Below, one piece after another: positions 48,807 through 56,500 of a stretch of DNA of 64,000 nucleotides. This stretch comes from Viola odorata (taxonomy: Eukaryota > Streptophyta > Magnoliopsida > Malpighiales > Violaceae), in NCBI GenBank assembly GCA_963691705.1, contig OY829538.1, forward strand, positions 34,740,836 to 34,804,835, in the 5' to 3' direction. The notes below the pieces were generated by a model. That model was not told the DNA's origin and did not search any database. It worked only from the letters and a program-made list of their open reading frames with translations. The stretch's first letter is position 1; every line of letters starts with the position of its first letter. Both the position numbers and the translations under genes were made by a program.

Positions 48807-49200
48807 TTCTTCAGCGATGGGTCCTCAAGAAACCATCGTTTTGTTTTCTTGTAATTCCTTCTCTGTCATGGCTTTCAAGAAAAGTAGCGTCGCAATTTTC
48901 TTCACCATAATGACAATCGCCGCTCTTTGTTCGGTTTCTGTAGCCTCTGAATTTTATTCGGGTGACCACGCCAGTTGGACCAGAATGGGTCAGGTTAACT
49001 ACAAAGTCGGTTGGGTTTCAGCTAACAAGTTCATTGTGAGTCACCCTCCAAGATCTTCATTGGGTTAAACCGAAATTTGGTCCCTGCAGTCTAATTGATT
49101 GACTTATTTCAGCCCTATGTTTTTAAAAAATAGTATTACATCCTCCCACTGTAGTTTTATGTTGGATTTCAGCCCTCACCCTAACGCCATCCAATTTTTC

Positions 49201-49280
49201 CGTCCGTTTGCGTACGTGTCATTGATTGCTGACGTGTCACCGTCCGTTTGCGTACGTGTCATTGATTGCTGACGTGTCAC
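49201..49280. repeat. Perfect 40-bp tandem duplication
   Basis: CGTCCGTTTGCGTACGTGTC plus the next 20 bases is present twice without a mismatch, at 49201-49240 and 49241-49280, in the left arm only. Confidence 0.95.
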
Positions 49281-49333
49281 GCCATGTAGGCAAAAGCCAA
49301 ACGGGTCGCAAAATGCCAAATTTTGCATGAAAT

Positions 49334-49388
49334 AGGACTTGAACCCACGACCTCATGGTTTCTTGTGCACTACCAACTGAGCTAGACT
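49334..49388 (-). pseudogene. tRNA-like fragment (Lys-like), decayed
   Basis: On the minus strand TCTAGCTCAGTTGGTAG (D arm, A box) and GTCGTGGGTTCAAGTCC (T arm, B box) are kept, but the anticodon arm between them is shortened and unpaired. Confidence 0.6.
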
Positions 49389-49458
49389 AATTGATTGTTA
49401 ACATTTTAATAAAATCTGACTATTACCTCCTATATTTTTCAACAAGCACCAGCAAAAG

Positions 49459-49529
49459 AGCTGAAGTGGGGCTCGAACCCACGACATCATGGTTAAGAGC
49501 CTTACGCTCTACCAACTGAGTTAGATGGC
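49459..49529 (-). pseudogene. tRNA-Lys(CUU)-like sequence
   Basis: Minus strand: ACTCAGTTGGTAGAGC D arm, anticodon loop CTCTTAA (CTT, Lys) and a perfect T arm GTGGGTTCGAGCCCCAC. The acceptor ends do not pair, so it is a pseudo-tRNA, closely similar to plant tRNA-Lys. Confidence 0.75.
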
Positions 49530-49647
49530 TTCTGTGTTAACACTTTAATAAAATCTGACTATTACCTCCCATGTTTTCAACAATAACAGCAGTACAAATA
49601 TTTTTACTAATAAAATCTAACTATTAAATTAATGGAATAAATAATTT

Positions 49648-49759
49648 ATGGGTGGGCTATTAGTACTTCTAATTATTAGTTATAATCAATTTGTCCATTA
49701 AAATTTAAATATATAAAATAAATGCGAATAAATAATTGCAGTACTAATAGCCCACCCAT
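49648..49759. repeat. Perfect 20-base inverted repeat with 72-base loop
   Basis: ATGGGTGGGCTATTAGTACT at 49648-49667 and its exact complement at 49740-49759, in the centre of the element. It may be an inner MITE or a hairpin. Confidence 0.8.
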
Positions 49760-49970
49760 AACTAAATTTATATATAATAAATATATGAACAAAACATATA
49801 TATCTTATTTGAAAACTTAAATATTAATAATTTTATAATAAAATTTAAATATTTAACAACATAATAATTAATAATTTAAAACAACCTCGGGTCGAGAGAT
49901 GATCATATTGTTGGTGTTATTATTGAAAAAGATGGGAGATAATAGTCAGAGTTTATTAAATTAACAAAGA

Positions 49971-50043
49971 AGTTGTCCAACTCAGTTGGTAGAGCGCATG
50001 GCTTTGAACCATGACGTTGTGGGTTCGAGCCCCACTTTTGCTC
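49971..50043 (+). pseudogene. tRNA-like sequence in right arm (Lys-derived, anticodon loop CTTTGAA)
   Basis: D arm ACTCAGTTGGTAGAGC, a perfectly paired anticodon stem CATGG/CCATG with loop CTTTGAA (nominal anticodon TTG), and T arm GTGGGTTCGAGCCCCAC at 50018-50034. The acceptor stem is unpaired. A TTTT run follows directly (50036), as at a Pol III terminator. Confidence 0.7.
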
Positions 50044-50329
50044 TTTTGCTGGTGTTCTTGTTGAAGGATGGCGTTAGAGTGATGGGTGAGGGCTGAAATC
50101 CAACATAAAACTACAGTGAAAGGATGTAATACTACTTTTTAAAAACAAATGGCTGAAATAAGTCAATCAATTAGACTGCAGGGACCAAATTTCGATTTAA
50201 CCCATCTTCATTCGTGCAAAACTTATTCGCCAATCGCAACTTACAGAATGGGATCCGATACCAGTCACTCTTGCCAGTCCGGGACACTACTACTTCACCT
50301 GCGGATGGATGACTGATCCATGAACTCGG

Positions 50330-53500: not shown

Positions 53501-56500
53501 TAATTCAAACCATCACCAAATCATTAACATGTAAGTCTTCTCATATACTTTTATTTGCATTTTTCCCTTAGTAGTTTGTTGAAAAAATAATTAATTATTC
53601 TATTCATTTTATGTGTAATCTTAATTAAAATGTTTTGGTATGAAATATAACTATCCCACACAAAATAGTAAACAGCGTCTTATACCTTTTTTTATCATTT
53701 TATATTTTAACAGCATTTTACTAAATAGTTTAACTAAACACTTTAATAACTTTTGCAAACATCAATTTTATCAATTGCACAACAACGCAATGCATGGCAC
53801 AGCAATACAATACTGGGGTTAAAGAGACCCTTATATTGATGAGCAACAATTCAGTAGTAAAACAAGGCCAATGTATACCTGAAGTAAGTCTTCAGCTGAT
53901 GATGAGGACTGCAGCTTCAGACCCCATGATTTCCGATAATTGTTGGTCCAAACAGGGTGAAGAGCTTCTGGCAGAAACGAGACCTGCCAACCCACAGATT
54001 TACAGCATAGATGGTAAGTTGCATTTTAAACAAAAAAGAAATAAAGAGAAGGAAATTTGCAATCTTAGTAAGAGAAATAATTAATGCAGCAAAAACATCA
54101 AAGGAGCTTATACCTCAATCAAAGCTAACTGCCATCTAAGTATTCTGATCCTTAGTGGAGAAGTTAAGCCACAAAAAGTATAGTCAGAGTCCATTTTTAG
54201 TTTCCGCTCGCAGTAAACCACATGTTCAGAAAAACTCAAGGCACCCACGGAAGCACCATATGTCTTATGGCACGAAGAACAGTGATTATCTTCATAAAAA
54301 TAAATGTCACGGCAATCATCACAAACACTGAGCAGTTCTCGGCATCTCTTTTTCCCATACTTACTGCCGCATAATACCAAAGAATTAGAGCTCTCTTTCC
54401 ACATCCACTTCTCAAAATCTCGATATCTCTTCACAGCAAGACTTCTCTCAGATTCATTCCTTCCAATTTCAATAGCAAAAGATGTTGAAGTCTCAGACGC
54501 ACCAGCATCTGAAACACTGCTGCTTGGGCTATCAATAGCAGAGCTGGAATCGGGGCCAGCCACCATTACAGGAGCTTCAGTTTTAACAGAATCTGAGACT
54601 CTTCTTTGCTGGTGCATGTTAAGTCCTACCCTGTTCTTCCTCACAGTTTCCTTAAAGGTCATCTCAACCTTTTGCAACATTGTCTGCAAATGGAATTCTC
54701 TAAACCCTCGCACATCCAAAGATGCCAATAGAGCATCAAAAACCTGAAAAACAACTATGAAAATTGTCAACAAACAAAGCATGAGGAAAGATATGCATGT
54801 AGGAAGTTGTACAGCATATTAAATCCACTAGCCACGCTTTCAGGGTCACAAAAGTTGTCAATGTCTAGATCAAGTAACTTTTATATTGTATTAGATCTGT
54901 GCAAGACAAAATATCACATATAGCGGACACCAGTTACCTATGATACCACAGACACTTAAGAGCAAGGAGCATGCCATGGCTGCTCAACAGTCAATATGAA
55001 TTATTCGTTCATATATATTAAAGTTTAAGTAATGAACTTCAAGTTTACATTCCACAAGCACATCAGGTGCATGTGTGCCAACAACACCAACTCAATAAGC
55101 CACATTTCATACTACATAGGCATATGAAGATAAAGAAGTAATTCAAGATCCTACCTCTTCGGAATCAATCAGTCTCCAGCGACCATCATGTAACTCAACA
55201 AAGATCCTGCCACTGCCAGGATCATTGTGAGATGCAGATGCAATAAACTGCCAGTACCGATTGCGCCTGCGATCCTGACCAAGAGGCAATGATCTGTACA
55301 CGTACATCTCTTCTGCCTTTTGACCAACCAAAGATTTTAGCTGTGAGCGTGACCTTTCAGCAATAAGTCCTGGATGCTGATATGGAGCATGTTCTGGACC
55401 AGCAGAGAAATCTTGCATTTGCAGGTTGCTTTCAGAAGGCAAATTATTAATATAATTCAAGTCATTCTGCATGTCACATGCTTGTTCTTTCTGAACAGAA
55501 ACTTTCACTGACATCTCATTGCTTTTGTCATCAGTAGTCATCAATGGGCTTTGCTTACTCTCTGCTGCAGAAAGTGCATGGCTAGGTTCCATCTTATTCC
55601 CAAGAAATGGAGGAAAATGCATCTTCATTACATACTCCTCTTTCATACGACGCTTGTCAAGTTGTGTGTCTGCCCACATTTGCTTCTTTAGAGCATTTGC
55701 TGCTTCTAGACGTTCCTGAAAAAGTTTTTATATGAGATCAGAGACAAATAATCAAGCATGATTTTAGAATTAGCCAGAAGAAACAAACAAAACGATACCT
55801 CGAGAACAACACGAATTGAGTTCCCCTCAATTGCCACACCAATCAGAGCCACAAGAGCGTTAAGACGCTCTTCAACACTCAGATCAGAGTACTCCGCCTC
55901 CATAAGTCCCTGAAGCCACGATTCACCAGGATTGCTTTCATCAATATCCATAGCTTCTTCCCCAAGTTTATCACATATTCCAGAAACATTTACAGATTGA
56001 TCATTGGAAGCACCAACACCTTCTAACTGAGAAATGCCTTCAGAATTCAGTGAAGGCACATCCTCGCCACCATTCTCAAGGCCAACTTCTGGAGTTTTGG
56101 TAACACCATCATCCTCCCTTCCATTTCTTTGGACAGTTATGTTAAATTTATTTGCTTCCGGGGAATTGTGAGCCTCCTTCTTAGGGTTTAACTCTGCACC
56201 TAAATCATCAATCTCAGGATCTTCCGCCACATCGCTTCCAGAATCATCATCTCTCTCCGCATCATCAGCATCATCTCCATCTACAAAACCACTTTTAAAG
56301 ATTCGAATCCTCTCTCCGGCAGCAGAAAGTATTGCCTCAGCATCAGCTGGATCCTTTCTATAGGCAGTGCGTACACAATATGTTGATGGAGCAGTTCTCT
56401 CAAAAAGTTTAGAATCCCTAGACAAAGCAGCAGCTATCGACGCTTCTGGTGTTTTACTTGTTGTGAGATCCCGCAGTCCAGATTTCTTTAATCAAAACAT

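Follow-up and report, generated by a model that had tools for sequence, protein, structure and literature searches.

Acquired DNA built into the extended ends of Mutator-like elements (MULEs) is on record (Ferguson and Jiang, 2012; PMC3310237), and the Pack-MULEs and those MULEs whose terminal inverted repeats (TIRs) are multiple or extended, as treated in the portions of that article drawn on here, share with the element described below long TIRs, target-site duplications of 9-11 bp and host DNA acquired within extended TIRs. The tandem duplication of terminal sequence described there has its counterpart here in loci with tandem TIRs (type B, see below). By contrast, the sequences reported as acquired in the same portions are genes or gene fragments, e.g., of a zinc-ion binding protein, whereas here a tRNA gene is present, mirror-wise, in each of the two arms; the main text of that article does not contain the word tRNA. 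In wheat, tRNA-Lys sequences are in excess in repeats, which have multiplied them, and their capture by repetitive, transposable elements was proposed (PMC3989483; PMC4298962). The wheat carriers named in the consulted part of PMC3989483 are Gypsy or undefined de novo repeats for which no MULE end structure is described there, whereas the carrier here has MULE ends. A DNA transposon that carries and spreads a sequence of Pol III type is also known from the mariner-type MER6, where, according to the part of the article used, a SINE is inserted in an animal element (PMC6887750); here, it is a tRNA unit and no SINE that lies in the terminal arms of a plant MULE. Among the open PMC papers listed by searches on this subject, titles and abstract openings contained no report of tRNA genes inside MULE ends, and earlier reports may exist. 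The family described here provides a concrete carrier, with its anatomy, for a plant tRNA-Lys-like repeat of the kind proposed for wheat, and shows that a Pol III gene can be taken up by extended MULE ends and transmitted through many insertions.

In the window, i.e., the whole stretch of 64,000 nucleotides of Viola odorata DNA that was analysed, a MULE copy occupies positions 49062-50203. It begins GGGTTAAAC... and finishes ...TTTAACCC, and both its limits and the perfect 9-bp target duplication ATCTTCATT (9/9) around it are as given in the initial annotation (Table 1). About 110 near-identical bases had been assigned to each arm; near-identity holds for the outer TIRs (125/131 between left and right, with 7 gap columns), but the repeat is longer than that and a second inverted block follows in each arm. 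The length of the TIRs is that of MULEs (typically 100-500 bp), and a single TIR stands at each end, whereas tandem external and internal TIRs are found in type B loci such as L033. Between its two inverted blocks the left arm holds an extra 245 bp (49193-49437) that are absent from the right arm and contain two exact 40-bp repeats and a weaker tRNA-like unit (18 bits). The arms are unequal because the right arm lost these approximately 245 bases including its outer tRNA unit, and the window copy is accordingly classified, on the basis of the alignment, as a type A element with a deletion in the right arm. Whole-arm identity was 0.849 in the window copy and 0.878-0.974 in eight other copies, calculated over ungapped columns with 89-343 gap columns in each. 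Comparison of the rest of the window with the element by blastn returned a single 33-base match (E 0.005).

Table 1. Coordinates of the features of the MULE copy in the window.
Feature	Position	Strand	Remarks
Target-site duplication ATCTTCATT, left copy	49053-49061		
Outer TIR, left arm	49062-49192	+	Homologous block in fetched loci
40-bp direct repeat, two exact copies, left arm	49200-49280		Related pieces in other copies
Outer tRNA-like unit, left arm, anticodon arm shortened	49332-49384	-	Rfam tRNA 18 bits (cut-off 29); homologous unit in other copies
Inner inverted-repeat block, left arm (5' flank, tRNA-like unit, 3' flank)	49438-49591	-	133/151 vs 49912-50065, 6 gap columns
Inner tRNA-like unit, left arm, anticodon CTT (Lys)	49466-49523	-	Rfam 32.4 bits; core 53/58 vs genomic tRNA-Lys(CTT)
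AT-rich core common to the family, internal hairpin at about 49637-49771	49600-49911		
Inner inverted-repeat block, right arm	49912-50065	+	
Inner tRNA-like unit, right arm, anticodon TTG (Gln), anticodon stem paired, TTTT downstream	49979-50035	+	Rfam 38.6 bits; core 49/58 vs genomic tRNA-Lys(CTT)
Junction of ~245-bp deletion, right arm, outer tRNA-like unit removed	50065-50066		Alignment with same arm of L014, L016 and L020
Outer TIR, right arm	50066-50203	-	
Target-site duplication ATCTTCATT, right copy	50204-50212		

All three tRNA-like sequences of the initial annotation, two in the left arm and one in the right arm on opposite strands, were recovered, as were the fully paired anticodon stem and the downstream T-run of the right unit. 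The Rfam tRNA model, with a length of 71 positions and a cut-off of 29 bits, covers only positions 8/9-63 in the window units and the acceptor stem is not recognised, so that these units do not display the complete cloverleaf with acceptor stem of a functional tRNA gene. With default settings ARAGORN called no tRNA gene in the window element; at a threshold of 90% the right unit was called as tRNA-Gln(TTG), and in the control all three fetched genomic tRNA-Lys genes, each of them a full gene, were called. The genomic tRNA-Lys(CTT) is represented in the genome by 20 exact 35-mers, as compared to 0 in a backwards control. The cores of the units match it at 53/58 bases in both the window left inner unit and L036, and at 49/58 in the window right unit (maximum of 28 in 2000 shuffles of each core), while the acceptor bases match at 6/14 in L036 and at 5/14 in each of the two window units. 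The core match shows that the unit body is of Lys type and that the right anticodon became one of Gln type. The earlier description of the units as Lys-type tRNAs is therefore correct for their bodies and for the CTT of the left inner unit, but not for the right loop, as CTTTGAA contains the anticodon TTG. Similarly, of the A and B boxes described as intact, only the B boxes agree with the genomic tRNA-Lys; its A box is TAGCTCAGTTGG, whereas those of the inner units are TAACTCAGTTGG in the left arm and CAACTCAGTTGG in the right arm. A 50-base pattern built from the two inner units matched only those two places in the window and 0/100 shuffles; since it was derived from the units themselves it is a weak control, and the Rfam scores provide a better one. 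As in Pack-MULEs, captured host-gene sequence is present, namely the tRNA-Lys(CTT)-derived core, which comes from a tRNA gene and is not the usual protein-coding fragment.

The host genome (699 Mb) was searched with the window element, which yielded at least 335 matches with 40 of 830 candidates scored, so that the family counts given here are lower bounds. From the match list 39 loci were fetched, a sample biased toward similarity with the window copy, and in these the tRNA-like arms for which the initial annotation had proposed a genome search recur at fixed places. The Rfam tRNA model scored at least 29 bits in 33/39 of them (20/20 in one set and 13/19 in the other). Along a type A arm, the outer TIR is followed by the region with the 40-bp repeat, a spacer, the outer tRNA-like unit, a flank, the inner tRNA-like unit and a second flank, after which the core begins; the fullest form has two tandem tRNA-like units per arm in mirror layout, and in all loci resolved block by block the units are oriented from the core to the terminus. 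Four tRNA hits were obtained in 7/39 loci (L014-L019 and L022) and three in 5/39 (L013, L020, L021, L023 and L036), where an outer unit of L013 and L020 is too worn for the blast threshold, yet visible in the alignment. In type B, to which most of L024-L048 belong, the TIRs are in tandem and only one of the arms contains a tRNA-like unit. Loci of this type (e.g., L033:672-1030) form a large subfamily with a different outer terminus and with one tRNA unit or half of one.

Six of the 39 loci had no tRNA match above the cut-off, and five of these share the same tRNA half. When the outer TIR alone was used as query, 40 of 1003 candidates were scored and 17 loci outside the fetched set were found; three of the four that were read carry half a tRNA and one, L089, carries none, while all four have kept the family core and the 5' flank. 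The half-tRNA and tRNA-less copies are considered deletion derivatives because flank and core of the tRNA-bearing form are kept in them. Members without the tRNA segment, which according to the initial annotation would speak against a tRNA-bearing terminal repeat, thus exist as a subfamily with half a tRNA and as L089, but they retain the surroundings of the tRNA-bearing form. A tRNA-free ancestor, or a copy predating the capture, was not seen among the fetched loci and the four of 17 TIR-found loci that were read. Since the subfamily with half or no tRNA also multiplied, the tRNA parts do not seem to be needed for movement.

Eighteen loci have both ends, and 13 of these display perfect target duplications of 9-10 bp, in line with the 9-11 bp of MULEs; the ends were allowed to slide by up to 4 bases in this test, with L014 and L015 requiring a shift of 1 base. 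The duplication of L031 is imperfect (8/9), and none was detected for L016, L018, L020 and L030, four copies which could be damaged or recombined. Comparison of up to 500 flanking bases, on one or both sides, among 24 loci revealed unrelated flanks except for L017/L021/L051 and, more weakly, L033/L044 (74% match over 222 columns). The elements thus form a family with long inverted arms that carry tRNA-Lys-derived units at fixed places and that inserted at unrelated sites with 9-10 bp duplications. How the arms were inherited can be seen from the inner units, of which 46 sufficiently complete ones representing 34 loci were collected from the 39 loci and the window, incomplete ones being dropped. 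The anticodon loop contains CTT in 12 units and TG in 27, and is different or missing in 7. Among the 12 elements with both inner units, 10 have CTT (Lys) in one arm and CTG or TTG (Gln) in the other; the exceptions are L022, with changed loops in both arms, and L023, which runs against the pattern with CTT in both. In a tree of the 46 units, drawn with the root at the midpoint, one branch with support of 100/98 splits the units by arm, with the 12 CTT units and one L022 unit on one side and the 27 TG units and six others, including the second L022 unit, on the other, so that in 11 of the 12 elements retaining both units these fall on opposite sides. This arm-by-arm tree shows that the arms already differed in the common ancestor and then travelled together, and it indicates that tRNA parts were present in both arms of this ancestor. 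Together with the occurrence of the same arms in independent insertions with their own target duplications, the tree supports the structural proposal of the initial annotation that a portion of a tRNA gene was incorporated into the terminal repeat of a DNA transposon.

The observations are very probably explained by a non-autonomous MULE family with an old capture of tRNA-Lys into its extended ends, which is carried along passively. In this scenario, an ancestor would have captured a tRNA-Lys(CTT) gene together with its AT-rich 5' flank and T-run, and tandem duplication of the captured piece would have been followed by its spread, in opposite orientations, to the two arms. Since then, the whole unit would have been moved by a MULE transposase that recognises the outermost bases in trans, with the tRNA parts as passengers that presumably decay at the rate of their flanks. 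MuDR DNA-binding, MULE and SWIM domains were found in pieces of a MULE transposase near L051, and the middle piece has 111 scored matches in the genome, itself included. Both L021 and L051 are part of a large inverted duplication; the transposase near L051 apparently lies beyond its breakpoint, which cuts the element copy in the core. No family arms were present within 1 kb at the matching distance near two close transposase copies, and among the MULE transposase copies compared none was tied to family ends. An autonomous partner beside L051 was therefore dropped as a candidate, on account of its position beyond the breakpoint and of the close transposase copies without such arms. At L052 and L057 (C9 near 57.91 and 57.96 Mb), a large inverted duplication has blocks of 3.8 and 1.2 kb that are 94 and 98% identical, and a copy of the element apparently contains its breakpoint.

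As an alternative to passive carriage, the tRNA units might be working Pol III promoters whose short transcripts aid the element, be it through dsRNA control, chromatin opening or a boundary function. Pol III transcription or tRNA-like processing had been called conceivable in the initial annotation. In its favour, TTTT follows downstream in 45/46 inner units, the B-box letters are those of genomic tRNA-Lys in 33/46, four units (L018, L021, L022 and L036) match the tRNA model from end to end, and the best of them (L036 1327-1399) reaches 55.4 bits with the full model. Moreover, the bases upstream of the element's tRNA units are AT-rich, as reported for plant tRNA genes in the part of PMC11700998 used here. 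The T-run, the T arm with B box, which is slightly more conserved than the 5' flank, and the paired anticodon stem of Gln-type units fit retained Pol III signals. However, the A box is as in genomic tRNA-Lys in only 5/46 inner units, CAA occurs at most 10 bases upstream in 7/46, and the half-tRNA subfamily has multiplied. Furthermore, identity to the class consensus, determined for two classes of inner unit with the 7 other units left out, was 0.96 and 0.958 for the tRNA body as compared to 0.96 and 0.963 for the 5' flank and 0.972 and 0.98 for the 3' flank, with 0.974 and 0.981 for the T arm with B box and 0.938 and 0.954 for the A box; in this set the tRNA body thus showed no excess conservation over its flanks. 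Folding was assessed for 30 of the 36 units delimited by Rfam hits (six truncated, gapped or worn ones were dropped, and type B is partly covered), in which 48.1% of the acceptor stem, 95.8% of the D stem, 90.7% of the anticodon stem and 98.7% of the T stem positions are paired, with the anticodon stem paired in Gln-type units and an A-A mismatch in Lys-type units. Covariation in the cloverleaf of these 30 units was no higher than in shuffles, and selection on the tRNA fold, with the body conserved like its flanks, is therefore not supported. The units look decayed, as judged by the mostly lost acceptor stem and the flank-like conservation, and the sequence evidence lends no support to Pol III transcription or tRNA processing and leans against it. 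We therefore consider working promoters unlikely. A related possibility, that the mirrored units are kept as TFIIIC/Pol III sites and that outward Pol III activity from both arms opens the ends for the transposase or shields the element from silencing, appears quite improbable; if it were true, the terminal control region of the transposon would include a promoter stolen from a tRNA gene, and the pattern of a Lys and a Gln version in the arms would represent a maintained asymmetry. Irrespective of this, a single genome contains copies with four, three or one tRNA units, with half a unit and with none, and the family therefore offers a natural test of whether remains of a Pol III promoter near transposon ends influence movement or silencing.

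Separate insertion of tRNA-derived SINEs by chance into the arms, the other explanation that the initial annotation had considered as a refutation, is very improbable. SINE heads are often tRNA-derived. A SINE within a DNA transposon is also known, namely in MER6 (PMC6887750, in the part consulted). On the other hand, the shared block extends about 59 bp 5' and about 22 bp 3' of the tRNA, no SINE body or A-tail was seen, and the combination of 5' tRNA head, body, tail and own target duplication that characterises tRNA-derived SINEs was not found. The units occupy mirror places in independent insertions, and those of the two arms lie on opposite sides of one strongly supported branch; as the arms were already distinct in the ancestor, later separate insertions are excluded as an account of the family. 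Additionally, with the right tRNA unit (89 bp) as genome query, all 40 scored of 176 candidates matched; 34 of these 40 best matches fall within the window or loci already fetched, and the two of the remaining six that were read (L068 and L080) are both type B copies of the family. A SINE origin is thus rejected on flank extent, mirrored position and the arm tree. Resemblance to tRNA by chance, to which only the absence of a gene call by ARAGORN with default settings could point, is practically negligible, being refuted by Rfam scores above the cut-off in 33/39 fetched loci and in the window and by core identities far above the shuffled maximum.

Further observations concern the termini, the core and the surroundings of the element. 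On arms that otherwise resemble each other, the outermost 25 bases occur in at least five versions (termini of L014, L018, L021, L025 and L036), as if termini had been exchanged or were fast-evolving. Matches of the terminal 19-mer in four stretches of viral contigs were read as chance because similarity stops where the pattern ends, and further exact pattern scans of viral contigs and genome contigs found nothing. The plant microRNA family MIR7486 gave weak hits, none of which reached its cut-off, in the type B loci L033, L037, L038, L042, L043, L046 and L047; they lie in the outer TIR spacer at about 800-900 and 1790-1940, in some loci on both strands, as expected for hairpin-like stretches. 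The hairpin of the family core, an inverted repeat of 75% identity in which a 20-base stem, ATGGGTGGGCTATTAGTACT, is perfect, may represent an older insertion nested in the element. An open reading frame that starts at 48868 is split by the window element (48868-49061 and 50204-50323); by eye, we take its product to resemble a plant phytocyanin. Pfam returned nothing above a cut-off for the interrupted coding sequence, and in the empty site rejoined in silico the later part of the frame runs on in other frames; on both grounds the frame may be an old pseudogene. Finally, a coding stretch with a WSD (D-TOX E) motif (PF15613, 3.4e-12) lies on the minus strand at 55146-55679 of the window, so that a chromatin-type gene is located approximately 5 kb away from the element.
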